A DNA stretch of 64,000 nt from Bacteroidota bacterium. Its GTDB lineage: Bacteria; Bacteroidota; Bacteroidia; UKL13-3. The position numbers were made by a program, and so were the translations under genes. Numbering within the stretch: the stretch's first letter is position 1; every line of letters begins with the position of its first letter. Positions 6,105-40,631 of this stretch are shown one piece after another. Where the stretch lies: NCBI GenBank assembly GCA_947457395.1, contig CANGVA010000011.1:1-64000 (forward strand), given 5' to 3'. The notes below the pieces were generated by a model, which was not told the origin of the DNA, did no database searches, and saw nothing but the letters and a program-made list of their open reading frames with translations.

Positions 6105-9100
6105 ATGAAAAATTATCTCTACTTTTTAACTAAACTAGTCTATTACAGAGTTTGGATGTTAAGTTTTATTTTCCTATCAGGCACGACAGCCTACAGTCAA
6201 ACGGCTGTAACAATTCCACCTTTCTATAATACCAATGCCGGTGGTGCTGATAATATTTTTCCGCTTAATAGCACCAATAATACCGTGCAATGGATTTTTC
6301 CACCGGGTACTTTTAATAGTAATGGACCAACAGGAACACCTGCCTCAGCGGGTTTTATTAATAAGATATATTTTTTGTTAGGTGCAACAATAAACAATGC
6401 AAATGTTTATGGGAATTATACATTAAAGATTGGACAAAATGTTGGTACTCAGGTGGCATGGACAGGTGCAACATGGCAAACAGGCCTAACAACTGTTTAC
6501 ACAAATCCAAGTTTTGTTATTACAGGCGCAGCTTCTGGTACGTGGATTATGGTGCCATTACAAACTCCTTTTTATTATAATCCAGCACTATCATTAGTTT
6601 TTGAAATGGGTTCAACTCAAACAGCAGGGGGGAATCAGGTAAGACAAACCGCTCAAGGAAATCAACGCATTTGGGGACCTACAGGGAGCGCAGCACCAAG
6701 TGGAGGCCCTGGAGCAGGTACACTTAACTTTGGAATAGAAGTAGCTCCCGCAGGAAATAATGATGCCGGGGTGGTATCAATAGATTCAATTACTCCATAT
6801 TCTGCAGGTACAAGACCTGTGTATGCCAGAATAAGAAATTGGGGGCTTAATCAAATTAATAATGTTAATGTTAACTGGTCGGTAAACGGTGTTACTCAAA
6901 CCCCTGTGGCATTTACCAGTCTGCTTGATACTGTTGGAGGAGTCGGAAGTGCATTTGCAAACGTTAATTTAGGGAATGTAAATTTTGTTAATAATATAAC
7001 TTACAATATCAGAGCATGGACATCTCAGCCCAATGGGCAAAATGACACGGTTAACGTAAATGATACAGCATCAATTTTCATTCGTTCCCCTTTGAGTGGT
7101 AATTTTACGATTGGAGCAACAGGAGACATTCCAACCATTTCCGCAGCAGCAAATTTATGTTCTTCAGCCGGTGTGAATGGGCCGATAAATTTTACCCTTA
7201 TTGATGATTTATACAACAGAGCAACAGGAGAAAATTTCCCTGCTACTTTCAGTAACATTAATTTCCCGGTTACCATTCGTCCTTCAAGCACTGCAAATCC
7301 TTTAATTATTGATAGTTTAAGCACTGCAATTATTAATATAGATGGTTGCCGTAATTTTAGTATTGATGGCAGAAGAAATGTTAATGATAATGGAAGGAAT
7401 ATAACCATTGAGAACATGAGTATTTCAACCTCGGCAAGTGTGGTACGTTTTTATAATGATGCAATTAGCAGTTTATTAAGGAATGTAGTTGTAAGAGGTG
7501 CTAATAATACTTTAGCCACTACCGCAAACCCTTCGTGGGGTTTGGTGCATATCGGAGGCACCAACAAGGCTGTTCCAATTGGTAATGATAGTATTCTTAT
7601 TTTTAATAACCTCTTTGCTAGATCTCAAGGTCGTCCATATTCACAAGGCTTGGTTTCAGACGGCCAAAGCATCACGGCACAGAATAATAATATAGATATG
7701 GATAGCAATTGGTTTCAGGGTTTTACCATCAATGGTATTCATGTTACCACTACTGCATCAACTTGGGGCAATGGAGGCAATTTCCGAATTAGAGGAAATA
7801 GTTTCTATGATACAATGGTTACCGTTCCGGCTACCACAATGAATTGTATTAATTTTATACCAAACCAATCTTCAGGTTCAAACAATAATTTAATTAGCGG
7901 TAACTATATTGGAGGGCAATCTGCTTTTACAGGAAGCATTGCTGCTACACCTGCGTTGCCACGTTGGGAGTTTGGAGTGGGGGCTACTGCCATATTCAAT
8001 GGTATTGTTGTGAATAGTGGTGCTGGCACAGGAACTACTGTAAGCAATAATGTAATAAGGAATTTTAGGTTTAATAACCCTACCACCACTGCAGGGTTTA
8101 ATATGATTTCACACGGACAGGGTGCTATTCAGGTGTTAAACAATACCATTGGAATGGAAGCTGATACCAATAATATCACCTTTTACGGCAATGCAAATCT
8201 AAACGGTATAACTTGTACATCAACCAACGATCAAACCATAAACGGCAATAGTGTTAGGTCTATAACGGCTAGGATGTCAACCAATGCACCTACTAGTTTA
8301 ATAGTAAGGGGTATACTAACCCAAAGCAGCACAGGCAATGTAAATGTAAACAACAATACTGTTGCAGGCTTTTCTGTTCGTTCAGATGCTACAGGTTCTA
8401 CCACTTCTTGTGCTATTATTGGTATAGCATCTTCCCACACCAGTAGTTCAGTAAATATTAATAACAATACCATTGGCGGTTCAGGGGTAAATGATTCTAT
8501 TGTAAATTATTCTACTATTGCCTCTGCAACAAGGGTAAATGGCATCGTGGTAATTAACTCCGGTATTCATACCATTAATAACAATACCATCAGAAATTTA
8601 TGGAATTTTAATGCAGGCCTGGGAACCTCCATCTCAGCAAATCTGGTGGGTATTAATATGCAAGCAACAGGAAATGGAAATACCCTTTCCGGTAATACCA
8701 TAGATAACTTAAATATGCCAACTAGTGCCACAACTGCTACAATAGGTTTGTTTTCAGGAAGCGGTGCGGCTAGCATTTTAAATAATACCATAAGTAATGT
8801 TTATGTAAACAGTACCAATACAAACACCATTACAAATGCAGCCATTAACGGTATTTGTATAACAGCAAGTTCACTGCACACTATCAATAACAATACCCTT
8901 TTTAATTTTGATAATAGGGCAGTAGCATCTACACAAATCAACGGTATAGTGTTTAGCGGAAATAATTCAACAGTGATTAACAATAATACCATCAGAAACC
9001 TAAGAAACAGAGGCTTTAGTACTTCAACAGGTTTTGCCATAACAGGTATTTTACTTAGTACCTCTTTTGCCAATCAAACTATTAATAACAATACCATACA

Positions 9101-12100
9101 TTCACTTACCTGCTATGATGAGACCAATGCCAACAGTGGCATTATTGGAATTTATTTTTCCGGTTCAAGTTCATTAACTGGTAACGTTAATTCTGTAAGC
9201 AATAATTTCATACATAGTTTTGGTGCCGGTACAATTGGTTTCGCAACGCCAGCAACTAGCTTTAATATGTATGGCATTTCTGTAGTTTCAGGTAATATAA
9301 ACTTGTTTAACAATATGATTAGGCTTGGCAGAGACTCATCCGGTACTCGGTTAACAAGGCCAATAAACTTGCGTGGTATCTTTATTCAAACAGGAGGTAC
9401 GCTGGTCCATAGGATAAGCCATAATACCATTGTTATTGATCAGAATCCAAATACCACAGGATCCCAAACAACTTCAGCATATGAGCATACCAGTAGCTAT
9501 GCTGCTCCCGGATTTTGTGATGTCAGGAACAATATCTTTGTTAACCATACAGTTAGTAATTCGCCTTCAACAGGCACTCATTTTGCTGTTAGATATTCAC
9601 CGTTTACAGCTAATGTCAGGTCAAATCATAATATTTTTAATATTATCCCATCATCATCCTCGTTTATTGGTTTGGCGAATAGTCTAAACAGGTTAACAAT
9701 AGAGAATTTTAAACAGGGTTCATTAACGGATGTAAACTCAACATCCATTAACCCCGGTCTAGTTAATACAACGGGAGACTTTAGTTCAGTAGATTTACAT
9801 CTTTCCGCTGCCAATAATGCCGAGGCTCAAGGCGATAGCACGGTGCTTGCCAATGTTGCAACAGACTTTGATGGCAATAGCAGAACAAGCTGGAATGATG
9901 CTGATATTGGCGCTGATGCATCGGCAGGCACCCTTAGTATTGATAGCATTGCACCGGGTATTAATTTTACCAACCTTATTAATATTGCACCGGTACCAAG
10001 CAGAGTGCTTAATGCTACCATCTATGATCGTTACGGTATGCGAAGTAATATAGACACTCCAAGGGTTTATTACAGGAAAAATGCAGGAGCATGGACATCA
10101 AGTCTTGGCGCGTTAACGAGTGGTGACTTACGAAGTGGTACCTGGCAATTTACCATTGACCATACAGCTTTAGGTGGCGTTGTAGTTAATGATGCTATTC
10201 AATATTTTGTGGTAGCTCAGGACAGTGCTAATAGTAACTTTTCATCAAACCCAATGTATGCGTCAACATCGGTGGCTAATATTGTAACATTTCCCGGTAC
10301 TCCGGCAAGTTATTCAATTACGGATCCAATTCCTACTAATGTAACTGTTGGAACAGGTGGTACCTACACCACCCTTACCGGCACCGGAGGATTGTTTGAT
10401 GCCATTAGTCGCTCAGTCCTACAAGGCAACACCACTGCTGAGATTATTAGTGATATTGCAAATGAGCCGGGCTTGTTTTCTCTTAATGCATGGAATGAAA
10501 TTGGAGCAGGTGGTTACACGCTTACCATTAGGCCGCAAAGCAATACGCAACGCATTATCAGTGGTAATACTTTCAATACTAATGGTTTGATTAGGCTTGA
10601 TAATGGGGTGTCTAGAGTAAGAATATTAGGTTACCCTTCAACCATCATCACACCAATACAGGCTGATACTTTTTTAATTATCCGTTCAAACTCAACGATT
10701 ACTCCGGCATTAGGAATAGCTAATGCCAGTAATACTGATTCCATCATGAATGTGATATTAGAATCACGAACTGCTACTAATGGAATATTATCTATTCTCA
10801 GTTCTTCGGCTATTTATAATACGGGTGTTTATAATATTACCATAGAAAATTGTATTCTGAGGCAAGACTTAACTTCTGTTGCGGCATCTTTACCTGCAAC
10901 AGGTTTTTATGCTATTGGTTCTAGTCCTAGGTTGAACTCCAATATTCGATTTGCAAACAACCAGGTATTGAACTGCACCAATCTAGGCATAAATATCGCA
11001 TCCGGTAACGGTAATTCCTTTAATATTACAGGCAATCAGTTCTATCATAACAACGGAGTCTTAAATATTGGCTTAAGTTACTATATCCTTTTCAATCCGG
11101 GCCAATTCTCAGATAATAACCTTATTTCTGGAAATGTTATGGGAGGAACAACAGCCCAAGCAGGAGGTTTGCCGTTTATAACCACAACCAGTATTCACTA
11201 TGGAATATATGTAAGCAGTGGTTTGGGAAGCGGCACAACTATTCAGAATAATATCCTATCCAACCTAAGGATGACAAGTACTTCTTCTTCATACAATGGT
11301 ATATTCTTAGTTGGTACATCATCTGTTTACAATGTAAATAATAACAGAATCGGAAATATTGATTCTGTTTTCAGCATACATATCGCTTCAACAGGCAGTA
11401 ATCGTTCATATGGTATCTATTCTCAAACAAGCGGAAATATATCTGTTACCAATAATCAGATTTATAATATCAGATACAGTGGTACCGCGGCAACAACCGC
11501 TATGCTTACTGGTATTCAGGTATTTAATGGTTCTTCTAACAATAACATCATAACAGGTAATATTGTGAAGGGGTTGTATATTAATTCTACCAATACAGGA
11601 ACATCTACTGCTGCAGCTATACAAGGTATTTACTGTGGATCGGGTAGTACTGCTATCACAATAGCAAATAATACGGTACAGGAGTTAATTAATATGAATA
11701 ATACTGCCGCACACGCCATGGTAGGTATTTTAAATGCTTCCGGTGTTGCTAGTATTACAGGTAATATCGTTAGAGGTATGGCCTCAAGAAGTACCAACGC
11801 AAGTGCAGCCTCAACTGCAATAGGTATGTGTGGCATTATGAATTCCGCTACTACATCGGGCACTTATAATCTGAATAACAATTTAATTGATAGCATGTGG
11901 TATACAGGTACCTCAGGGTTACAGATGATGGGTATCTATTTTGCCGGTACAACTGCAGCCATTGGTAATATAGTAGGTAATACCGTTAGGAATTTAAATT
12001 CAACATCTACTGCTGTAGGAACGGCCACTGCTGCAAGTATTATTGGTGTTTTTAACAATAGTAGTGCAGTAAATCAGCTAATGAGGTCAAACATAGTGCA

Positions 12101-15100
12101 TACTTTAAAGCATCTTAACACCTCCGGCAGTTCCATTACAGGAATACATTTTACTACAAGTACTTCGCTTACGGGTAATACTTCAATTGTAGACAGAAAC
12201 TTTGTACATAGTATTAGCTCTACTGCAACAAGCGGTTCCCCAATACTTACAGGTATATTACATTCCGGTTTTGCAACCTATACAAATAATATGATAAGAA
12301 TGGGGGTAGACTCTGCCGGTAGCCAATACACTGATTCAAGATTAATCAGAGGAATTCACATTAACTCTACAACACAAGTTTATTTGTATAACAATTCTGT
12401 ATTGGTTGCAGGCTCACCTTCCAGCGGATCGCTTAGCACAGCTGCAATTGAATTCACTTCATCTGTGACTACCGCACAAATATCCGAAATCAGAAACAAT
12501 ATCATTGCAAATATTGCTTCAAACGGAGGAACAGCAACCAGCATACACTATGGCCTGAAGACTATAGATACCGTAAGATTTATTTCTAATTTTAACTTAT
12601 TCTTTACACCGGGAACAGGCGGTATTGTTGTGGGTACCAACATCAGGTCATATCCTTCTTTAAGTGGTGCTGCCGGTTGGAAAGACTGGTCTAGACAAGA
12701 TATGGCCAGTGCATACGGAGATCCTAATTTTAACTCAAATTATTTGGGAACAGCGGATCTAGCGTCTCTTGAATTGAATAGCAGCAATCCTGCTGAGCGC
12801 AGCGGAGATCCTAATTTAACAGCTGTTTTAACTGATTATTTTGGCAACAATCGAAGTGCACTTACGCCTTCTGATATCGGAGCACACGCAGGCAACTTTA
12901 CACAGTCTCCGGATATTTTCCATCCGGTTATATCATTTACACCGCTAACCAATACTGGTACTTTAACAGGCACAAGAACGCTAGCTGATGTAGTAATCAG
13001 AGATAATAATGGCATACCTATGTCTGGTGTCAATAGGCCGGTAATTTGGTACTCAAAAGATGCTAGTAGCTGGTTTAGCGCTTCGGCTATTACGCTGAGT
13101 GGAAGTGCAACCAATGCCACAGCGCAGTTCAGTATAGATTATACACCAATGTTGCCATTATCCAATAGTGATACGATTCGGTATTATGTTTTGGCGCAAG
13201 ACAATGCAGGTAATGTTATTTCATCAGAACCTTATGCTATTGCAACCTCAGTTTCAAACGTTGTTTCTCATCCAGTTAGGCCAAACACCTATAATTTCTT
13301 GCCTGTTATTCCTGCAAACAGTGTATTTCAGGTTGGTGTAGGTCAAACCTATCCTACTCTTACCGGTGTAGGTGGTTTCTTTGAGTTTATTAATTCAAGA
13401 ACATTGGGAGGCAATATAACTGCAGAGATTACTTCAGATATAACTGAGCCGGGAACAATTATTCTTGGTCAGTTTGCAGAAGATGGAGCAGGTGGATATA
13501 ATTTAAACATTAGACCTAGTGCAGGAACGACTTCTCCAAGGATACTTTCAGGGAATACCAACACTGCGCTTATTCGTTTAGATGGTGCCGATAGAGTTAA
13601 AATAAATGGAGTGCCAAGCGGAGGAAATGCAAACGATAGGCTCCTGATGATTCGTAACTCAGGAAATGCAGCCACCATTGAAATGCAGAATGCAACATTA
13701 GGTGTACGTATCAATAATTGTATTATTGAGGGAGCGCCTACATCAACAATCGTTGGAGTAATTAATTTTATTGTTAATGCAGGAACAGTTGGAAATTCTT
13801 TCGATACAATTAATGGCTGTATCATCAGGAATAATACCAGTTTAGCGTCACCATCCGGTGTACCTGCAACCCTAATTTATTCAAATGGCTTACTCAGTCC
13901 TTTGGCACTTAATAATGCGCTGGTTATTACCAATAATGAAATTGCTAACTTTAATAACAATGGTGTTTATTTTAACACATATACTGGAGATAATTGCCAG
14001 ATAACGGGTAATAGCTTTTATAACAATATTATCAATCAGCCACTTGGTAATACCTTCTACCCAATATTTATTAATTCACAGAATTATTGTGGTAACGCCA
14101 ATATAAGCAATAACTTCATAGGTGGCTCTACTACCAATTGCGGAGGTGCAGCTTGGTCCAAATCAAATACTGGTTCTTTTTTTCCGATTTATATAGCATT
14201 AAGGACGGGAGTTGTATCTACAATTACAAATAATACCATCAGAAATATAAACTATAGCAATTCTTCTTCTTTTGCACAGTTTTATGGTGTGTTTCACGTT
14301 AGTGGAGATGCGAATATTAGTAATAACGTAATAGGTAGCAGTACCGGTAACGGAAGTATAATATTTGCAACAAATACAACGCATTACGGTATTTATTCGC
14401 AAACCACCGGAACTATTACCATTAATAATAATCAAATTGGTTCTATAAATATTGGAAACCCCGGTTTAAGTTCAAGTTTCTATGGGATTTTTATAACAGG
14501 AACCAATCCGCTTTCCATAAATAATAATCTCATTGGAAGTAACACAACAGCACAAAGTATTAGATTAAATGGTATTGGCCAGCTCTATGGAATTGCCACC
14601 TCTGTATCGGCCAACCTTGCTCCAATGTATGCCATAACTAATAACACGATTGCCAATATGGATGCTGTTGCAAATTATGCATCCACATTTGTTAGAGGCA
14701 TTCAGATAAATAGTAATACATCAGAGGCTAATGTAACAGGTAATACCGTTCGAGATTTGTACTCAAGTAGTTCCAGTAATAACACAAGCACAAGTGCTTC
14801 AATTATCGGTATTCAGTACAGTAACAGCAGCAATGTTTCAGGAAGTGTTGCTAATAATACGGTGTTTAATATTGCAGCCACAGATGCCGGAAATTCTCCA
14901 ACCTCTGCTTTTGGTATTTTACTCTCTTCAGGTTTTAATATAAGCATGCAATCTAACCGTATTTATAATATCAGTAATTTATCTACTTCAATCAGCACCA
15001 ACCCGGCACCGGTTGCAGCAGGTATCTCTATAGCTGGTGCCAGCACATCTGTTAATTTACTCAATAATCAAATTACACTTGGAAATGCACAAACTACCAA

Positions 15101-18100
15101 TACCCAATTCAATGGAATTTGGCTGCAGTTTAACTCAGGTAATCAGCTTATAGTTAATGCATTTAATAATAGTGTCTTAGTAACTGGTACAGCTACCAGC
15201 GGCAGTCAGCAATCATTCGCATTTGTAAGGGGTAACAACACTGGAACGGAGATGGGTACATTTATGAATTTGCGCAATAATATTTTCGCCAACAACAGAA
15301 GCGGTGGTACAGGAAAACACTATGCTATTGCCAATCAAACCAATGCAGCCACTAATAATACATGGACAGCCAATTCATCAAACCATAATTTATTGGTTGC
15401 TGCAAATTCGTCTTTAATTGGATTGTGGGGCCTTAGTGATCAAACGCTTGCTCAATGGATAATAAATACAGGAGGATCAGATGTGTTTAGTTATGCAGCA
15501 ACATCAACTACCGGAGCAAGCAATGCCTCAAGCATTAATCTTACTAATTTATTTTCCAATATACCTACAGGTAATTTAGGTATCCAGTCATCTAATGTTG
15601 AGGTCTGGTATGTATTTGGGAAGGGGCTAGCAGGTAGTGCTATCAATAACTTAGCAACAGATTTTAACGGCATAGCCAGAAGCACTGCGGCAGGCACCGG
15701 TATTACATTAGGTGCTGTTCAGCTTAACACTGCACCATCAATACTTCCTATTGCAGCATTGGCTTCAGCCAATCCTGCATCCAACACTACTACCACTTAT
15801 ACTTTTGGCGGAAGAAATATTCTTAGTATTAGCTGGGGTGCATCGTCTCCTACAGCCGCAACCGTATTACATTTCACAGGAGTCAATCCTATCGGAACTG
15901 CTCCTGCAGGAAATAATATGAATCAATATACCAGGGTAAATGTTACTGGCGGAACTGCTCCGTATGATTTTGGAGCGACACTTTCATATGACCCTGCTAC
16001 CTTAGGTGTGATTTCTTCAACCAATAACTTAAAGATTTCAACCCAAACTTCAGGAACATTGGTTGCTCCTGTTTGGTCAACATTGCCGATTTCAACTGTT
16101 AATGCTGCTAACAGAACAGTTTCAGCTACGGGAATATCTAGTGGAGGCTTAGGTGCATTGTTCTTTACAGGAACAGAAAATGCAGCCCCGCCTGTTATTT
16201 CTGCTTTCACACCTTCTGCCAGACAAGTTGGTGGTGCGGTTACCATTAGGGGTAGCTTATTTACCGGTGCAAGCGCAATTAATTTCAACGGAGTTAGCCA
16301 GCCAACATTTACTGTGGTAAACGACACAGCCATCAATACTACGGTGCCGGTTGGTGCCACATCCGGTGCGGTTTCAGTTACTAATCCTTATGGCACAGGT
16401 ACAAGTGCTGCATCATTTACGGTAATCCCGGCACCTACTGTAACCTCTATCTCTACCACCTCTGGTACATTTGGTACAGCTGTTACCATTACAGGTACAG
16501 GATTTGTCTGGGCTACTCAGGTTCAGTTTAATATAACCAATGCCGTATTTACCATAGTAAGCAATACATCCATTACCTGCACAGTGCCAAACGGTGCAAC
16601 AACAGGAATAATCACAGTTACTAATCCGGCAGGAAGTGTAGGCAGTGCATCTACATTTACAGTAATTGGTACACCAACCATTTCTTCACTAACACCGGCA
16701 ACCGGAGCTGTAGGAACTAATGTAACCATAGCAGGTACAAATTTTCAGGCTATAACCTCAGTTACTTTCAATAATGTAAGTGCCTCCTATACTGTAAACA
16801 GTTCAACCCAAATTACAGCAACTGTTCCAAATGGAGCGTCAACAGGTTTGGTTCGTGTTACTAATGGTTCAGGTACTGGTGTAAGCACTGGTAATTTTAC
16901 GGTAGTTCAATTGCCAACAATCACTGGGTTTAGTCCATCTTCAGGAAGTTCGGGAACAATCGTTGCTATAAACGGAACCAACTTTTCTTCAGTTGATTCT
17001 GTTGAGTTCTTTGGTGGAGCAAATGCAACTTACACTGTGAATAGCAGCAGCCAAATTACAGTAACTGTGCCTTCTGCTGCATTAACAGGAGCCATCACTG
17101 TTTACACAAGCGTTGGTTCTGCCACAAGTACCGGTTCGTTTACTATTATTCCTGATTTAATCATAAATTCATTGGTTACATCTGTTATTGGTACCTATAA
17201 CAATATTACTGTTACTAGCACTGGTGAGGCAATACTTAGTGGCCCACTTGTTGCTTTAGGTAATGTTGTGGTACAAAGTGGTGGTGCGATTAGATTTGGT
17301 AATAATGTGCTTTCAGGAAATGGAAACTTTACTGCTCAGGTCGGATCAAGGTTATTTATAGGCTCACCTCAAGGTATATCTGCTACAGGTGGTTTAACCG
17401 GGAATGTGCAAGTGGGCGGTGTACGCTCATACAGTAGTGGTGCTATTTATATTTATGATGGCGTTTTTGCGCAAGCAACAGGAACCGGGCTCCCTTCTTC
17501 TGTTGACACATTAGAAATAAATGATACGGCAGGAGTTACACTAACACAACCTTCAAGTGTTAACAGTTTACTTAATTTTATGAATGGCAAGTTAGTTCTA
17601 GGAAACAATAACCTGACTGTTAATGGCAGTATTCAGGGTATTAGCGCCACTTCTTATATTGTCACACCTAATACAATTTCCAGTGGTGGTTCATTAAGAA
17701 GGCCGGTTTCAAATAATAATATTCCTGTTGATTTTCCTATAGGTACCATTTCCACCCAAACGCCTGCACAAATTCAACTATCACTAGGTTCAACGGCAGA
17801 TGTATTCTCTGTGCGTGTTTTCAACGGTGTGTTTCAAAATGCCACATCAGGTCCTGCTTTATCAGCTAATACAGTTAGAAGGACTTGGGTGATTTCTGAG
17901 AATGTTAATGGCGGATCAGTTGCTACTGTTCAGTTAACGTGGGATGATACGCTTGAAAACCCAGGTTTCTTGCGCTCAAGCAGCGGGGTATTCGGTTATT
18001 CAACTGCACAATCAAGTTGGTTATCGCCTTCTACCTTTTCACCTGCAACCGGAGCTGGACCTTTTAGTATTTCAAGGACTAATATCAATTCTTTTGGTGC

Positions 18101-18701
18101 ATTTGCAGTTGGAGACAATACTTCAACTTTACCAGTTGAACTGGTTAGTCTGGTTGCTAATAAATTGGGTAACCATATTGCTGTATCCTGGACCACGGCT
18201 TCAGAGTCTAATAATAGCCATTTTGAGATTGAGCGTTCATATGATGGAGCACGTTTTGAACAAGTAGGAAAAGTTGATGGCATAGGATTTAGCCAATCTG
18301 AGCAACATTATCAGTTTGTTGATACAGAAGCTACACGTAAAGCTAATGTAAACCTTGTGTATTACCGTTTGAAACAGGTTGATTTTGATGGTATGCATAC
18401 GTATTATGGCCCTGCATATGTGCAATTGCAATCTGCTTCTAAACCTGTACTTGCTGTATTCCCTAATCCTTTCAGCCAGGGCTTGCAGGTACAAATGTTT
18501 AATGAGCAAGCGGGTAATGCACACATCATTATTACAGACTTGCAGGGTAGGGTAGTTTATTCCAATACGCTGGACATGGGTTCCGGTTTGCAAACCATTG
18601 CACTACCTAAAATTGATTCATTAAAAGATGGCGTTTACTTTATGCAAACAGAAATAAATGGCCACACAGCCAAAACAAAACTGGTTAAAGCCAGCAATTA
18701 A
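6105..18701 (+). CDS. Giant T9SS-exported protein with three beta-helix modules, four IPT/TIG domains and type A sorting domain
   Basis: This 4198-residue protein has a signal peptide (to about residue 32) and a C-terminal T9SS type A sorting domain (about 4110-4198, 'VFPNPFSQGLQVQ...GVYFMQTEINGHTAKTKLVK'), so it should be exported through the outer membrane and anchored or released. After two N-terminal beta-sandwiches (35-330) come three right-handed beta-helix modules (about 330-1250, 1410-2260 and 2405-3205) built from repeats of the type 'I.NNTI.N'. Each is introduced by 'Y.TLTG.GG.F..I...' plus 'ITSDI.EPG'-like sequence in modules 2 and 3, and they are separated by similar Ig-like linkers (1260-1400, 2265-2400). 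Four IPT/TIG domains follow (about 3364-3685), then a beta-rich segment and an Ig-like domain beginning LPVELVSL. The enzyme-like residues of pectate lyases are not obvious; an adhesive or matrix role is more likely. Its terminator is at 18726. Confidence 0.9.
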   Translation: MKNYLYFLTKLVYYRVWMLSFIFLSGTTAYSQTAVTIPPFYNTNAGGADNIFPLNSTNNTVQWIFPPGTFNSNGPTGTPASAGFINKIYFLLGATINNANVYGNYTLKIGQNVGTQVAWTGATWQTGLTTVYTNPSFVITGAASGTWIMVPLQTPFYYNPALSLVFEMGSTQTAGGNQVRQTAQGNQRIWGPTGSAAPSGGPGAGTLNFGIEVAPAGNNDAGVVSIDSITPYSAGTRPVYARIRNWGLNQINNVNVNWSVNGVTQTPVAFTSLLDTVGGVGSAFANVNLGNVNFVNNITYNIRAWTSQPNGQNDTVNVNDTASIFIRSPLSGNFTIGATGDIPTISAAANLCSSAGVNGPINFTLIDDLYNRATGENFPATFSNINFPVTIRPSSTANPLIIDSLSTAIINIDGCRNFSIDGRRNVNDNGRNITIENMSISTSASVVRFYNDAISSLLRNVVVRGANNTLATTANPSWGLVHIGGTNKAVPIGNDSILIFNNLFARSQGRPYSQGLVSDGQSITAQNNNIDMDSNWFQGFTINGIHVTTTASTWGNGGNFRIRGNSFYDTMVTVPATTMNCINFIPNQSSGSNNNLISGNYIGGQSAFTGSIAATPALPRWEFGVGATAIFNGIVVNSGAGTGTTVSNNVIRNFRFNNPTTTAGFNMISHGQGAIQVLNNTIGMEADTNNITFYGNANLNGITCTSTNDQTINGNSVRSITARMSTNAPTSLIVRGILTQSSTGNVNVNNNTVAGFSVRSDATGSTTSCAIIGIASSHTSSSVNINNNTIGGSGVNDSIVNYSTIASATRVNGIVVINSGIHTINNNTIRNLWNFNAGLGTSISANLVGINMQATGNGNTLSGNTIDNLNMPTSATTATIGLFSGSGAASILNNTISNVYVNSTNTNTITNAAINGICITASSLHTINNNTLFNFDNRAVASTQINGIVFSGNNSTVINNNTIRNLRNRGFSTSTGFAITGILLSTSFANQTINNNTIHSLTCYDETNANSGIIGIYFSGSSSLTGNVNSVSNNFIHSFGAGTIGFATPATSFNMYGISVVSGNINLFNNMIRLGRDSSGTRLTRPINLRGIFIQTGGTLVHRISHNTIVIDQNPNTTGSQTTSAYEHTSSYAAPGFCDVRNNIFVNHTVSNSPSTGTHFAVRYSPFTANVRSNHNIFNIIPSSSSFIGLANSLNRLTIENFKQGSLTDVNSTSINPGLVNTTGDFSSVDLHLSAANNAEAQGDSTVLANVATDFDGNSRTSWNDADIGADASAGTLSIDSIAPGINFTNLINIAPVPSRVLNATIYDRYGMRSNIDTPRVYYRKNAGAWTSSLGALTSGDLRSGTWQFTIDHTALGGVVVNDAIQYFVVAQDSANSNFSSNPMYASTSVANIVTFPGTPASYSITDPIPTNVTVGTGGTYTTLTGTGGLFDAISRSVLQGNTTAEIISDIANEPGLFSLNAWNEIGAGGYTLTIRPQSNTQRIISGNTFNTNGLIRLDNGVSRVRILGYPSTIITPIQADTFLIIRSNSTITPALGIANASNTDSIMNVILESRTATNGILSILSSSAIYNTGVYNITIENCILRQDLTSVAASLPATGFYAIGSSPRLNSNIRFANNQVLNCTNLGINIASGNGNSFNITGNQFYHNNGVLNIGLSYYILFNPGQFSDNNLISGNVMGGTTAQAGGLPFITTTSIHYGIYVSSGLGSGTTIQNNILSNLRMTSTSSSYNGIFLVGTSSVYNVNNNRIGNIDSVFSIHIASTGSNRSYGIYSQTSGNISVTNNQIYNIRYSGTAATTAMLTGIQVFNGSSNNNIITGNIVKGLYINSTNTGTSTAAAIQGIYCGSGSTAITIANNTVQELINMNNTAAHAMVGILNASGVASITGNIVRGMASRSTNASAASTAIGMCGIMNSATTSGTYNLNNNLIDSMWYTGTSGLQMMGIYFAGTTAAIGNIVGNTVRNLNSTSTAVGTATAASIIGVFNNSSAVNQLMRSNIVHTLKHLNTSGSSITGIHFTTSTSLTGNTSIVDRNFVHSISSTATSGSPILTGILHSGFATYTNNMIRMGVDSAGSQYTDSRLIRGIHINSTTQVYLYNNSVLVAGSPSSGSLSTAAIEFTSSVTTAQISEIRNNIIANIASNGGTATSIHYGLKTIDTVRFISNFNLFFTPGTGGIVVGTNIRSYPSLSGAAGWKDWSRQDMASAYGDPNFNSNYLGTADLASLELNSSNPAERSGDPNLTAVLTDYFGNNRSALTPSDIGAHAGNFTQSPDIFHPVISFTPLTNTGTLTGTRTLADVVIRDNNGIPMSGVNRPVIWYSKDASSWFSASAITLSGSATNATAQFSIDYTPMLPLSNSDTIRYYVLAQDNAGNVISSEPYAIATSVSNVVSHPVRPNTYNFLPVIPANSVFQVGVGQTYPTLTGVGGFFEFINSRTLGGNITAEITSDITEPGTIILGQFAEDGAGGYNLNIRPSAGTTSPRILSGNTNTALIRLDGADRVKINGVPSGGNANDRLLMIRNSGNAATIEMQNATLGVRINNCIIEGAPTSTIVGVINFIVNAGTVGNSFDTINGCIIRNNTSLASPSGVPATLIYSNGLLSPLALNNALVITNNEIANFNNNGVYFNTYTGDNCQITGNSFYNNIINQPLGNTFYPIFINSQNYCGNANISNNFIGGSTTNCGGAAWSKSNTGSFFPIYIALRTGVVSTITNNTIRNINYSNSSSFAQFYGVFHVSGDANISNNVIGSSTGNGSIIFATNTTHYGIYSQTTGTITINNNQIGSINIGNPGLSSSFYGIFITGTNPLSINNNLIGSNTTAQSIRLNGIGQLYGIATSVSANLAPMYAITNNTIANMDAVANYASTFVRGIQINSNTSEANVTGNTVRDLYSSSSSNNTSTSASIIGIQYSNSSNVSGSVANNTVFNIAATDAGNSPTSAFGILLSSGFNISMQSNRIYNISNLSTSISTNPAPVAAGISIAGASTSVNLLNNQITLGNAQTTNTQFNGIWLQFNSGNQLIVNAFNNSVLVTGTATSGSQQSFAFVRGNNTGTEMGTFMNLRNNIFANNRSGGTGKHYAIANQTNAATNNTWTANSSNHNLLVAANSSLIGLWGLSDQTLAQWIINTGGSDVFSYAATSTTGASNASSINLTNLFSNIPTGNLGIQSSNVEVWYVFGKGLAGSAINNLATDFNGIARSTAAGTGITLGAVQLNTAPSILPIAALASANPASNTTTTYTFGGRNILSISWGASSPTAATVLHFTGVNPIGTAPAGNNMNQYTRVNVTGGTAPYDFGATLSYDPATLGVISSTNNLKISTQTSGTLVAPVWSTLPISTVNAANRTVSATGISSGGLGALFFTGTENAAPPVISAFTPSARQVGGAVTIRGSLFTGASAINFNGVSQPTFTVVNDTAINTTVPVGATSGAVSVTNPYGTGTSAASFTVIPAPTVTSISTTSGTFGTAVTITGTGFVWATQVQFNITNAVFTIVSNTSITCTVPNGATTGIITVTNPAGSVGSASTFTVIGTPTISSLTPATGAVGTNVTIAGTNFQAITSVTFNNVSASYTVNSSTQITATVPNGASTGLVRVTNGSGTGVSTGNFTVVQLPTITGFSPSSGSSGTIVAINGTNFSSVDSVEFFGGANATYTVNSSSQITVTVPSAALTGAITVYTSVGSATSTGSFTIIPDLIINSLVTSVIGTYNNITVTSTGEAILSGPLVALGNVVVQSGGAIRFGNNVLSGNGNFTAQVGSRLFIGSPQGISATGGLTGNVQVGGVRSYSSGAIYIYDGVFAQATGTGLPSSVDTLEINDTAGVTLTQPSSVNSLLNFMNGKLVLGNNNLTVNGSIQGISATSYIVTPNTISSGGSLRRPVSNNNIPVDFPIGTISTQTPAQIQLSLGSTADVFSVRVFNGVFQNATSGPALSANTVRRTWVISENVNGGSVATVQLTWDDTLENPGFLRSSSGVFGYSTAQSSWLSPSTFSPATGAGPFSISRTNINSFGAFAVGDNTSTLPVELVSLVANKLGNHIAVSWTTASESNNSHFEIERSYDGARFEQVGKVDGIGFSQSEQHYQFVDTEATRKANVNLVYYRLKQVDFDGMHTYYGPAYVQLQSASKPVLAVFPNPFSQGLQVQMFNEQAGNAHIIITDLQGRVVYSNTLDMGSGLQTIALPKIDSLKDGVYFMQTEINGHTAKTKLVKASN

Positions 18702-21759: not shown

Positions 21760-22947
21760 TTAATTAGTATTATTTATTTTAGCAAAAGCAGAAAGAATTT
21801 GATTTGAAATTGTGGTAGTGGTAATTTTAGCATATATCTGTGTTGTGCGAATATTTTTATGCCCAAGCATTTTTTGAACAATCTCCAATTGCACTCCATT
21901 ATTTAATAAGAATGTGGCGAATGTATGTCTTGCATTATGATGGGTAAGTTTCTTGTCAATCCCACTTAATTCAGCTACATTTTTAAGGTAACTATTTAGT
22001 TTTTGATTACTTCTTTTAGGCAATAGGTTCCCTGTAATCATACGCTCATTATTATCATATTTTCTTATAATTTCAATAGCTGTAGGGGCTAGGGGTATAT
22101 GAACAACCTCACTTGTTTTATTTTGCGTCCTGTAGATATAATTTCCTTTTTCAGATAATTGTAAATCCTTAGTTGTAAGGTTTTGTGCATCGGAAAAACG
22201 TAAGCCGGTGTAACAACTAAACACAAATAGGTCTCTAACTTTCTCAAGACTTCTATTTGAGCTAAAGTCTGCGTTTTGAATTTGGTTTAGTTCCTGCTCG
22301 GTTAGAAATCCTCTTAATGTGGGTATTTGTGTTAGTTTAAAATGATTGTATGGATTTTTATCTATTCTATTCTCAAGTATTGCAGCATTAAGGGTTGTTT
22401 TGAGTTTCTTATGGTAGTTATTGTTAATACTATTTCGACTTAAATTTTTATCTAATAAAAAGGCATCAAATGATTCGATAAATTTTAAGTCAACAAAATC
22501 TATTGGAACATCCTTTTTCTTGTATATTATCGTAATAAATTCACCTAACCTGGTATGGCAGGATTTGTAATGTTTATACGTTCCATGAGCAATAACCTTA
22601 CGTTTTTTTTCCATCTCCATTCTATCTAAGAAAAAATGAAGCAAATCGTCTGAATGCTGTCTCTTATTTAAAAGTTGATCGGCTACCTGAGCCGGAGACA
22701 TTTGAACAGGATTTTTTTGGAGTTCATACTGAAGGTTGTTAAATGCGGTTTTTATCTCCTGAATTTTCGCATTAACGGCAATATTCTTTTTTGCTTCTTC
22801 TTTAGCCGGGTTCCACTCATTAAGGGGTAATTCATACCCAATAGCTCTCTGGGTATTCTTCCTGTCAACTGTTATTTGCAAGTAGACAGGAGAATTTGCA
22901 TCAGCTTTTTGTGTTTTTCGGAGGGTGAATTTGATTGTAATTTTCAT
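21760..22947 (-). CDS. Tyrosine recombinase (site-specific integrase, Bacteroidota type)
   Basis: The 395-residue protein has the three-part layout of Bacteroidota integrases: an N-terminal arm-binding domain ('KITIKFTLRK...PVYLQITVDRK'), a core-binding SAM-like domain (about 95-200) and a catalytic domain. Catalytic residues are all present: R250 (TGLRFSD), K277 (QNKTSE), H337/R340 (HNAR), H363 (LGHKN) and Y372 (QIYAKI). It should integrate and excise the element at tRNA-Lys. I chose the ATG at 22947 (MKITIKF); an ATG at 22959 would add MFAK but lies inside a copy of the 13-bp repeat. If the repeat is bound by the integrase, binding would block its own promoter region. Confidence 0.95.
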   Translation of the reverse strand: MKITIKFTLRKTQKADANSPVYLQITVDRKNTQRAIGYELPLNEWNPAKEEAKKNIAVNAKIQEIKTAFNNLQYELQKNPVQMSPAQVADQLLNKRQHSDDLLHFFLDRMEMEKKRKVIAHGTYKHYKSCHTRLGEFITIIYKKKDVPIDFVDLKFIESFDAFLLDKNLSRNSINNNYHKKLKTTLNAAILENRIDKNPYNHFKLTQIPTLRGFLTEQELNQIQNADFSSNRSLEKVRDLFVFSCYTGLRFSDAQNLTTKDLQLSEKGNYIYRTQNKTSEVVHIPLAPTAIEIIRKYDNNERMITGNLLPKRSNQKLNSYLKNVAELSGIDKKLTHHNARHTFATFLLNNGVQLEIVQKMLGHKNIRTTQIYAKITTTTISNQILSAFAKINNTN

Positions 22948-22948
22948 T

Positions 22949-22981
22949 TTGGCGAACATTTTTTTGGTTTGGCGAACATTT
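22949..22981 (+). repeat. Two copies of TTGGCGAACATTT (right arm-type sites)
   Basis: Copies at 22949-22961 and 22969-22981 are 20 bp apart and followed by the degenerate TTTGGCTAACA. They sit just upstream of the integrase ATG and about 107 bases inside attR. Confidence 0.75.
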
Positions 22982-23087: not shown

Positions 23088-23104
23088 TGTGATTCCGCTG
23101 GGAT
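23088..23104. repeat. Right attachment repeat (attR), within tRNA-Lys
   Basis: The same 17 bases as 18984-19000; they include the last 15 bases of the tRNA gene. Confidence 0.9.
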
Positions 23105-23162
23105 TCGAACCCAGGACCCCTACATTAAAAGTGTAATGCTCTACCAGCTGAGCTACGGAATC
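23090..23162 (-). tRNA. tRNA-Lys(UUU)
   Basis: On the minus strand the 73 bases fold as a standard tRNA: acceptor GATTCCG/CGGAATC, D-arm GCTCAGCTGGTAGAGC, anticodon loop CTTTTAA with anticodon TTT, T-arm CTGGGTTCGAATCCCAG and discriminator A. CCA is not encoded. It is the integration target of the neighbouring island. Confidence 0.96.
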
Positions 23163-23210
23163 ATGTTTTTATGTCCAACTTCACAATGCTATTCAAATTT
23201 CTTTTGCTCT

Positions 23211-23300
23211 ACTCCCGAAACAAACAAAATCTTCGATTTTGGCTTTGTTTCGAGGACTCTCGAAAAATGGGCAAATCAAAGATTTGCAATTTTTCGGAGC
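23211..23300. repeat. Twin long hairpins upstream of tRNA-Lys
   Basis: Hairpin A (23211-23256) pairs ACTCCCGAAACAAACAAAATC with GATTTTGGCTTTGTTTCGAG across a TTC loop. Hairpin B (23256-23300) pairs CTCTCGAAAAATGGGCAAATC with GATTTGCAATTTTTCGGAG across AAA. Both begin ACTC-x-CGAAA, so they look like diverged copies of one element. No protein is supported here; a 65-codon plus-strand reading frame crosses the hairpins and is not convincing. Confidence 0.75.
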
Positions 23301-23318
23301 AGCTGAGCTACGGAATCA
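23300..23318 (-). repeat. Duplicated 5' end of tRNA-Lys
   Basis: CAGCTGAGCTACGGAATCA is identical to 23145-23163, the first 18 bases of tRNA-Lys plus one flanking base. The two copies are 155 bp apart and flank the twin hairpins. It looks like a target-site duplication or a partial tandem duplication. Confidence 0.85.
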
Positions 23319-23342
23319 ATCTTTTTTTTCTTAACGAGGCTG

Positions 23343-23372
23343 CAAAAATAAGGCGATATTCGAATTAGACAA
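23343..23372 (-). promoter_or_regulatory. Probable promoter of tRNA-Lys
   Basis: On the minus strand TTG (23372-23370), a 19-base spacer and TATTTTTG (23350-23343) match the Bacteroidota consensus with the same spacing as the tRNA-Ser promoter. It lies upstream of the duplicated tRNA fragment, about 180 bases from the intact tRNA; no such promoter is seen between the hairpins and the tRNA. Confidence 0.65.
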
Positions 23373-23444
23373 ACACAGCTATTATTTTTTTTAAAAAATT
23401 ATTCACACCCTATCTTTTTCAGCGAAGGAGTTATCAGTTGTTTC

Positions 23445-25001
23445 TTACTTTGTTTCCAGAACCACAAAGGGTACAATCATTTCTTCCAGTGAAATGCCGC
23501 CATGCTGAAAGGAGTTGTTGTATAGGTTTACATGGTAGTTGTAATTGTTCGGATATGCCATAAAATGATCTTCAGTAGCAAATACAAATCTGGAACTTAC
23601 GTGCAGCTTAGGCAATAAGGCTTCTTCAGGGTTTTTTATGGTAAATAATTCATTTTCATCATAACTCAGGTTTTTACCTTGTTTGTACCTTAAGTTGGTG
23701 CTGGTGGTGCGATCGCCAACAATTTTTACAGGGCTGCCCACGCGTATAGAACCATGATCTGTGGTGATAATGAGTTTTGCTTTCTTTTGAGCCAGTCTTT
23801 TTAGTGCCTCATACAATGGAGAGTGCTCAAACCAGGATTGTGTAATGCTTCTGTATGCAGCCTCATCTTCGGCCAGCTCTTTCATTACATTCATTTCCGT
23901 GCGCGCATGGCTTAGCATATCAACAAAATTGTATACAATTACATTGAGTTTGTTGTTATACATATTTGGTATCTGATCAACCAGATCCTTGCCAGCATGC
24001 AAGTTGGTTACCTTTGTGTAGCTAAATTTATCTTTAAAACCAAGGCGTCCTAATTGCGATGCCAGCAACTCTTCCTCATGTTTGTTTTTTCCTTCATCCT
24101 CTTCCTCGTCAACCCATAAATTAGGGTAGCGCTTGCTAATTTCTGAAGGCATCATTCCGGCAAAAAAAGCATTTCTGGCATAATGGGTTGTGGTTGGCAA
24201 AATAGTCAGGTAAACATCATCTAGCTCTGTTCGGAACAGCTCATTTAATATGGGCTGAATAACTTTCCACTGGTCATAACGAAAATTATCGAGTAACAAC
24301 AAAAAGGCAGGTTCAGCCGACTCACTTACAACGGGCATAAGTTTTTGTTTTACCACGGTATGGCTCATTGCCGGGGTTTGGGCATCCGGCTTTTTAATAA
24401 AATTGATGTAGTTATTTTTGATAAATTTGGTCCACTCCCGGTTGGCTTCACTTTTCTGCATTACAAACACTTCACTCATGCCTGAGTCTTTGCTCGAAGC
24501 TAACTCAAGCTCCCAAAAAACAAGCTTTCTATAAAGTGCAGCCCAACTATCAAAGTGGTTTGTATCCATCAGCTCCATGCCAATTTGCCTGAATTCCTGC
24601 TGGTAACTTTGGGCAGTTTTCTCACTAATTAGTCGTTTATTATCCAGAATTTTTTTTACAGATAGCAAAATTTGGTTGGAGTTAACCGGTTTTATCAGAT
24701 AGTCGGCAATTTTACTGCCAATGGCATCTTCCATGATGTGCTCTTCCTCACTCTTGGTTATCATCACCACGGGTACGTCCGGCTGGTTAGATTTTATCTG
24801 GGAAAGTGCTTCTAAACCGGAAATGCCTGGCATGTTTTCATCAAGAAAAATAATATCATAGTGCTTATTCTTGCTTGCTTCAATGGCATCAATACCACTG
24901 GTTACCGTATCAATTTCATATCCCTTGTTTGTAAGAAAAATAATATGAGGTTTGAGTAAGGCAATTTCATCATCGGCCCAAAGTATATGTGCATTTGGCA
25001 T
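23445..25001 (-). CDS. porX: PorX, T9SS response regulator with PglZ-type phosphatase domain
   Basis: The 518-residue protein joins a receiver domain (1-120: acidic D10/D11, phosphoacceptor D54 in FLDENMPG, conserved Lys in LIKPV) to a PglZ/alkaline-phosphatase-like domain (about 215-515: 'LLLLDNFRYDQW', 'LPTTTHYARNAFFAGMMP', 'LIITTDHGSIRV', 'SFQHGGISLEEM'). This fusion is the signature of PorX, which with the kinase PorY controls type IX secretion genes; in studied species the effector domain is a zinc enzyme acting on nucleotide-like phosphodiesters. PorY is not in the window, but at least five T9SS cargo genes are. It is transcribed divergently from the HD hydrolase gene, 57 bases apart. 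A Brex-type PglZ is excluded by the receiver domain and length. Confidence 0.93.
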   Translation of the reverse strand: MPNAHILWADDEIALLKPHIIFLTNKGYEIDTVTSGIDAIEASKNKHYDIIFLDENMPGISGLEALSQIKSNQPDVPVVMITKSEEEHIMEDAIGSKIADYLIKPVNSNQILLSVKKILDNKRLISEKTAQSYQQEFRQIGMELMDTNHFDSWAALYRKLVFWELELASSKDSGMSEVFVMQKSEANREWTKFIKNNYINFIKKPDAQTPAMSHTVVKQKLMPVVSESAEPAFLLLLDNFRYDQWKVIQPILNELFRTELDDVYLTILPTTTHYARNAFFAGMMPSEISKRYPNLWVDEEEDEGKNKHEEELLASQLGRLGFKDKFSYTKVTNLHAGKDLVDQIPNMYNNKLNVIVYNFVDMLSHARTEMNVMKELAEDEAAYRSITQSWFEHSPLYEALKRLAQKKAKLIITTDHGSIRVGSPVKIVGDRTTSTNLRYKQGKNLSYDENELFTIKNPEEALLPKLHVSSRFVFATEDHFMAYPNNYNYHVNLYNNSFQHGGISLEEMIVPFVVLETK

Positions 25002-40193: not shown

Positions 40194-40631
40194 TTAATTA
40201 GTGTTATCTAAGCCAGATACTTTAATAAACTCATCATATTCCTGCTGAAATGTTTTATTAGCATGATGTTGTTTTTGGTTATGGATGTAGTGATATACTT
40301 TTTCAACTATCGATTCAGAAACAGAATAAGCTGCATAGCCGGTTTGCCAGGCAAATTTGACAGAAAGTTCCTCTTTTTGATTTATATAATGTGAACTGGT
40401 GCCTTTTATTTGCTTAATGACTTCAGCAATTGATTTTTGAGGATTTAATAAAAATAAGCAATGAATGTGATCCGGCATACCATTTATGATTCTTACCGGG
40501 CATCCTAGTTCTCGTAATTCTTCAGCAATGTATGCATATACATTTCTTTCAATAGTTTGGTCAATTAATGGAACTCTTTCTTTTGTTGCCCAAATAGCGT
40601 GTATCCAAATTTTGTTAAATGAATGTGGCAT
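40194..40631 (-). CDS. Y1 (HUH) transposase, IS200/RAYT-like
   Basis: The 145-residue protein has the HUH motif H55-I-H57 in 'GMPDHIHCLFLL' and a single catalytic tyrosine, probably Y115, in 'YHYIHNQKQHH'. These are the features of IS200/IS605 TnpA and of REP-associated tyrosine transposases (RAYTs), single-strand DNA endonucleases. There is no TnpB and no second subterminal palindrome typical of IS200; instead a perfect palindrome lies 52 bp upstream of the start (40684-40719), which fits the RAYT-REP arrangement. All catalytic residues are present, so the gene looks intact. Confidence 0.92.
   Translation of the reverse strand: MPHSFNKIWIHAIWATKERVPLIDQTIERNVYAYIAEELRELGCPVRIINGMPDHIHCLFLLNPQKSIAEVIKQIKGTSSHYINQKEELSVKFAWQTGYAAYSVSESIVEKVYHYIHNQKQHHANKTFQQEYDEFIKVSGLDNTN

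Follow-up and report, generated by a model that had tools for sequence, protein, structure and literature searches.

tRNA genes are classic entry points for genomic islands and phages, at their 3′ ends. Fungal mitochondria carry double-hairpin elements, short twin hairpins which insert in or near tRNA genes. Two other described systems involve an endonuclease gene. The GIY-YIG nuclease SegB of phages T4/T6 cuts inside tRNA genes, where its reported motif RAWTSGAAC is in our reading the T-loop, and causes a unit that contains tRNA to be amplified in tandem (PMC13096335). In the mobile ORFs (mORFs) of fungal mitochondria, of the Allomyces atp6 type, an endonuclease ORF that has entered a gene is accompanied by a copy of that gene's end, giving an intact or hybrid gene while the native end is displaced (PMC3630166).

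The locus described here lies in a window, by which we mean the whole stretch of 64,000 nucleotides that was analysed, on contig C11 of the 2.54-Mb genome (G000) of an uncultured Bacteroidota bacterium. The tRNA-Lys(UUU) gene of the window is the sole tRNA-Lys among the 35 tRNA genes of G000 and has porX (23445–25001) upstream and a tyrosine integrase gene (21760–22959) downstream. An insertion of 155 bp, which contains no ORF, sets it apart from its promoter. In the tRNA sense the order is promoter, tRNA nt 1–18, twin hairpin, tRNA nt 19–26, spacer and intact tRNA (Table 1). We consider it likely that this feature belongs, as a non-autonomous member without a nuclease, to a family of GIY-YIG/hairpin elements which invade tRNA genes, its putative link to a nuclease being by family and by genome only.

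Table 1. Features of the tRNA-Lys locus, with positions in the window
Feature	Position	Strand	Basis
Intact tRNA-Lys(UUU)	23089–23162	minus	ARAGORN, genome-wide tRNA list and census
Spacer, the inner leader of intact tRNA-Lys, 42 bp	23163–23204	minus	sequence, promoter motif scan
Copy of tRNA-Lys nt 19–26 (GTAGAGCA in tRNA sense; TGCTCTAC)	23205–23212	minus	8-nt right-hand match
Hairpin 1, TCCCGAAAC ... GTTTCGAGGA on the plus strand	23213–23256	minus	fold, family pattern match
Hairpin 2, CTCTCGAAAAA ... TTTTTCGGAG on the plus strand	23257–23299	minus	fold
Outer copy of tRNA-Lys nt 1–18 and one flanking base, displaced original 5′ part	23300–23318	minus	repeat search
Bacteroidota-type native tRNA-Lys promoter, TTTG-N-TATTTTTG	23343–23373	minus	motif scan, leaders of relatives

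An earlier note on this DNA had reported a 19-bp repeat, two hairpins between its copies and a tRNA hit at both ends. The repeat, CAGCTGAGCTACGGAATCA, indeed occurs exactly twice in the window (23145–23163 and 23300–23318), where shuffled sequences lead to an expectation of 0.01. The hairpins were recovered on folding: the insert forms two adjacent hairpins at −28 kcal/mol, against −12.2 for shuffled sequences (z = −6.1; 0 of 200 shuffles equal it), the hairpin pair proper occupying 23213–23299. The note had placed the insertion point at the 5′ end of the tRNA and the extent of the tRNA duplication at 19 bp. The duplication itself stands but the duplicated tRNA stretch is longer, nt 1–26, and the point of insertion must be moved into the D-loop: because TGCTCTAC, beside the hairpin, equals tRNA nt 19–26, the outer copy is a partial tRNA of nt 1–26 whose D-loop is split by the hairpin after nt 18. 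As to the other end, the tyrosine recombinase gene does adjoin the tRNA-Lys 3′ end, suggesting an integrated element on that side, but the window has no second tRNA 3′ end; the 3′ end of tRNA-Lys is single-copy in the window, and an island attachment repeat was rejected on this ground. Elsewhere in the window, at 6105–18701, there is a repetitive ORF of 4198 aa which resembles a secreted surface protein.

A scan for sigma-70-type promoters gave no site, as expected for Bacteroidota, and a Bacteroidota motif was then used. Within 23089–23450 this motif scan located a single promoter-like site, TTG-N19-TAnnTTTG at 23372–23343, which lies beyond the outer copy as the earlier note had held, and found none in the inner spacer. 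The tRNA-Lys promoter is now ~180 bp from the intact tRNA. Two relatives (L019 and L031) have a TAnnTTTG-type motif shortly upstream of an uninterrupted tRNA, and the L019 leader resembles the outer leader of the window, not the inner one. Transcription of the sole tRNA-Lys is predicted to start at its old promoter and to run across the tRNA fragment and the two hairpins, giving a leader of ~175 nt that would then be trimmed. In the predicted fold of such a transcript the intact copy is largely tRNA-like, but there is additional pairing between the 3′ acceptor strand of this copy and the leader.

Comparison with relatives revealed that the arrangement is not uniform. Same-family genomes which keep porX beside tRNA-Lys (L019 in G020, L031 in G015 and others) have no insertion at this site; as judged by sequence comparison, the tRNA-Lys feature is an insertion. 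It is present in the same-genus genome G001, where the hairpin is identical to that of the window and the PorX protein 90% identical. G001 has a second twin-hairpin copy, at tRNA-Phe, which is 91% identical to the tRNA-Lys copy over the hairpins and flanks. At this gene 107 bp of G001 are missing from G000, and the 21-bp direct repeat which flanks them in G001 is single in G000. The insert holds the hairpins and tRNA-Phe nt 19–37; hairpin and duplication therefore arrive in one presence/absence difference. Such a same-genus pair of empty and occupied sites renders the insertion event testable and, together with the empty tRNA-Lys sites of relatives, supports the earlier proposal that the tRNA was restored by a duplication when a small palindromic element inserted. 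Further copies of the twin hairpin, for which the note had advised a search, are present both in the same genome and in relatives: a diverged copy occurs at tRNA-Asn in both G000 and G001, and another at tRNA-Arg(cct) in G000. The sequence result which the note had named as refuting its reading, a lone hairpin pair together with one arrangement in all relatives, was thus not obtained.

The twin hairpins have the feet TCCCGAA ... TTCGGGA and, over 85 elements, the layout TCCCGAA-hairpin-TTCGAGGA / TCCTCGAA-hairpin-TTCGGGA. A scan of 84,980 species genomes, most of them draft MAGs, with one strict pattern identified at least 115 stretches; these are overwhelmingly from Bacteroidota, with a few from Chlorobiota and Patescibacteria. 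The same pattern gave 0 matches in 2.9 million viral contigs, and viral carriage of the twin hairpin was rejected. Among the matches listed, 52 of 121 non-redundant copies have flanks which, once joined, match an intact tRNA right through the junction, with 47 of these junctions at nt 10–22 (D-arm) and five at nt 54–66. Random positions gave such a match once in 120, and this lone hit scores so high that a real tRNA was probably struck. At 36 D-type loci the direct repeat to the left of the hairpin, next to an intact tRNA, measures 10–69 bp (median 20), and the tRNA sequence runs on for 2–34 nt (median about 10) past the hairpin. The tRNA species invaded include Lys, Phe, Asn, Arg, Leu, Pro, Val, Ala, Gly, Met, Glu, Asp and Thr. 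A mirror arrangement, in which the split copy is downstream and the hairpin is in the T-loop, is found at tRNA-Ala in G000 and G001. Four loci of Patescibacteria (L075, L093, L130 and L161) show the same D-loop arrangement of the twin hairpin. More than half of the twin hairpins, those at L088, L064, L055 and L071 among them, have no recognisable tRNA sequence around them, and many of these belong to short intergenic repeats; here the hairpin may move by another route. When compared with a DDE-type MITE, the elements do have 7-bp inverted ends but their repeats of 10–69 bp differ from a fixed short target duplication, and transposition with a fixed stagger was rejected since the direct repeat is too variable.

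Some loci include a gene. An ORF of 80–100 aa is located between the hairpin and the intact tRNA at four D-type loci (L070, L110, L093 and L130) and at tRNA-Ala of G000 (L209, T type). Of the proteins encoded at such tRNA loci three were tested, and all match the GIY-YIG domain PF01541, with E values of 1e-14 to 1e-17; for the protein of the G000 tRNA-Ala locus the Pfam match to PF01541 has E = 1.8e-14. We surveyed an even draw of 89 Bacteroidia genomes, of which the 76 best-scoring short GIY-YIG ORFs were retained. Eighteen of the 76 have a tRNA within 500 bp and 16 of these 18 a partial tRNA copy, in contrast to UvrC-type controls, with 0 of 12. Many of the tRNA-adjacent genes have the partial tRNA on their far side, and in it a small GC-rich palindrome splits or replaces the D-, anticodon- or T-arm. 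GIY-YIG/tRNA loci seldom have the strict-pattern hairpin, and most have smaller, unrelated-looking hairpins.

In a tree of the GIY-YIG proteins, limited by small alignments, a single clade of 36 rows (support 100/97) contains all 31 tRNA-adjacent proteins, and two of the five other members of the clade also adjoin tRNA-Val fragments. The tRNA-adjacency labels require 3 changes on the tree, against 26.6 when shuffled. Residues Y6, Y17, G19, R27, H31, N32, E63 and K67, putatively catalytic or structural, are invariant in 31 of 31. As in homing elements, the fuller members encode a GIY-YIG domain with conserved residues, which the window copy does not, and the elements are placed at their target gene; empty alleles were seen for the nuclease-less tRNA-Lys and tRNA-Phe copies. 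At tRNA-Asp of G000 (L196, on contig C13) a second GIY-YIG ORF is accompanied by a 16-bp palindrome in the T-loop copy and then by the start of a partial tandem copy of the ORF. GIY-YIG ORFs of other clades occur away from tRNAs at six loci, flanked by other repeats such as CCTGAAACAAGTTCAGGGTGACG. There are hints in these sequences that small GIY-YIG nucleases and dispersed palindromes may be linked more widely.

The host genome is heavily marked. A census in which at least 14 nt of a tRNA's own sequence had to be repeated within 700 bp, outside other tRNAs, found adjacent partial copies at 13 of the 35 tRNA genes of G000 versus 1 of 36 in a second genome, G138 (single GIY-YIG match). One of the 13, at tRNA-Thr, may be due to chance; when GIY-YIG ORFs are counted too, 15 of the 35 genes are affected. 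Tandem units with TCCCGA...TCGGGA or similar hairpins occur twice at tRNA-Gly and three times at tRNA-Phe, and both tRNA-His and tRNA-Leu(gag) have hairpin-split copies on both sides. Contigs C1, C8, C14, C28, C29 and C32 of G000 have an end no more than a few hundred bases from a tRNA, which is what one would expect if the assembly breaks at tandem repeats of tRNA ends.

These palindromes might be explained without a nuclease. The twin hairpin could be a REPIN, an inverted doublet of REP-like palindromes moved by a RAYT (TnpA_REP, Y1), with tRNA D-loops as favoured sites. It is REPIN-like in that the 85 elements are pairs of inverted imperfect palindromes, and a RAYT-type Y1_Tnp gene is present in the window itself (40275–40616, minus strand). 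However, the hairpin was seen at none of 21 Y1_Tnp loci in a search of ten element-bearing genomes, four of which, including that of the same-genus G001, have no Y1_Tnp match, and the constant GTAG/CGTC tag is absent from the hairpin foot, where the flanking bases vary instead with the tRNA target. To our knowledge partial-tRNA duplication is not among the known insertion products of IS200/RAYT. The RAYT/REPIN explanation is thus not supported and we regard it as highly improbable. The palindrome near the Y1 gene of the window is a different one (GCCCACGGTTTAAACCGTGGGC), not the TCCCGAA hairpin.

Alternatively, any mobility may be past and the split tRNA copies may now serve the host, either as leader or trailer RNA tuning tRNA expression or as decoys for tRNA-cutting nucleases. 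The tRNA-Lys hairpin, unchanged between G000 and G001 in spite of the divergence of PorX, and the tandem arrays at several tRNAs would fit such a role, which nevertheless appears unlikely: presence differs within the genus and among relatives, Rfam 15 returned only tRNA matches on the 8 loci submitted, and a decoy role leaves the GIY-YIG ORFs in the same interval unexplained. The Rfam result also led us to set aside known structured RNAs such as a group I intron. Moreover, folding in the tRNA sense is no better than in the antisense: the two differ by +0.36 kcal/mol on average, and the sense RNA is the more stable one in 17 of 46. This equal fold of the two strands gives no sign of RNA-structure selection on the hairpin, and selection at the RNA level was rejected. 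It is also conceivable that nothing couples hairpin and duplication, ordinary tandem duplications of tRNA ends having later been broken by unrelated palindromes dispersed over the genome. We find this passive history very improbable given that the D- or T-loop positions of the hairpins recur across many tRNA species and phyla, that the tRNA-Phe difference comprises hairpin and duplication together, and that a single GIY-YIG clade is tied to tRNA loci, even though similar palindromes are found outside tRNA genes and the repeat lengths vary.

The reading which we prefer remains that of a GIY-YIG/hairpin element. In this reading, insertion splits a tRNA gene either in the D-loop, as in the 5′ type seen here with its junction between nt 18 and 19, or in the T-loop, as in the 3′ type, and is coupled to duplication of the tRNA end with some flank, such that an intact tRNA is rebuilt beside the split one. 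Fuller members carry a single-domain GIY-YIG ORF of ~80–100 codons between the split fragment and the intact tRNA. A nuclease provided in trans, with the tRNA-Ala and tRNA-Asp loci of G000 as possible sources, might break the tRNA gene, and repair of the break might then capture the hairpin and duplicate the tRNA end; the copy in the window would be a derivative that lacks the nuclease and was moved in trans. As for the hairpin, it may itself be what moves, a block to recombination between the direct repeats or a shield of the split copy from cutting. Across the loci an intact tRNA is always retained, the native outer flank stays with the split copy, and the nuclease gene, if there is one, lies between the two. 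We favour nuclease-triggered repair because this layout matches mitochondrial mobile ORFs and resembles phage SegB. The variable direct repeat counts against the model, being unlike the product of a fixed staggered cut, as do the lack of an ORF in the window copy, the many twin hairpins away from tRNA sequence and the scarcity of the strict-pattern hairpin at GIY-YIG/tRNA loci. In the usual logic of homing, the occupied allele is immune to cutting. In the occupied alleles observed here the hairpin interrupts the displaced copy, yet an intact tRNA with an altered flank remains, and homing immunity would need a recognition site which spans tRNA and flank.

The element family is widespread and, it appears, undescribed. 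A search of the open literature, with subscription papers and preprints outside its scope, yielded SegB and the fungal mORFs and no description of such a bacterial system. On balance we lean towards viewing these elements as an undescribed minimal class of mobile DNA, characterized by a GIY-YIG nuclease of 80–100 aa with palindromic junctions, entry at the D- or T-loop, duplication of the tRNA end, nuclease-less twin-hairpin parasites, and traces flanking more than one third of the tRNAs of at least one Bacteroidota genome. A tiny element of this kind inserts within tRNA genes that are essential and often single-copy, yet these remain functional; if the link to the nuclease is true, it would count among the smallest bacterial elements that mobilize themselves. 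With this family one could test directly how mobility is driven by single-domain GIY-YIG nucleases. It would also be a source for many of the dispersed palindromes of Bacteroidota and a possible reason for assembly breaks at tRNA loci.

Among known systems, the fungal mitochondrial double-hairpin elements are alike in form, going by their general description, but belong to a different compartment. REPINs share the dispersed pair of inverted imperfect palindromes; they differ in the RAYT and the GTAG/CGTC tag, both missing from the hairpins studied here, and in the D-loop placement with duplication which is particular to these hairpins. In SegB and other free-standing GIY-YIG homing endonucleases, as here, a small GIY-YIG gene lies beside tRNA genes (PMC13096335). 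Unlike SegB, the present elements are chromosomal, in Bacteroidota and Patescibacteria, their ORF measures 80–100 aa and cleavage is putative; their junction is marked by a hairpin-split tRNA end, and nuclease-less twin-hairpin derivatives are common. The layout of mORFs, with the ORF between the displaced native end and the rebuilt gene, recurs at six loci (L070, L110, L130, L209, L196 and L193). Whereas mORFs target protein genes, the targets here are tRNA genes, both 5′ and 3′ types exist, and the displaced piece contains palindromes.
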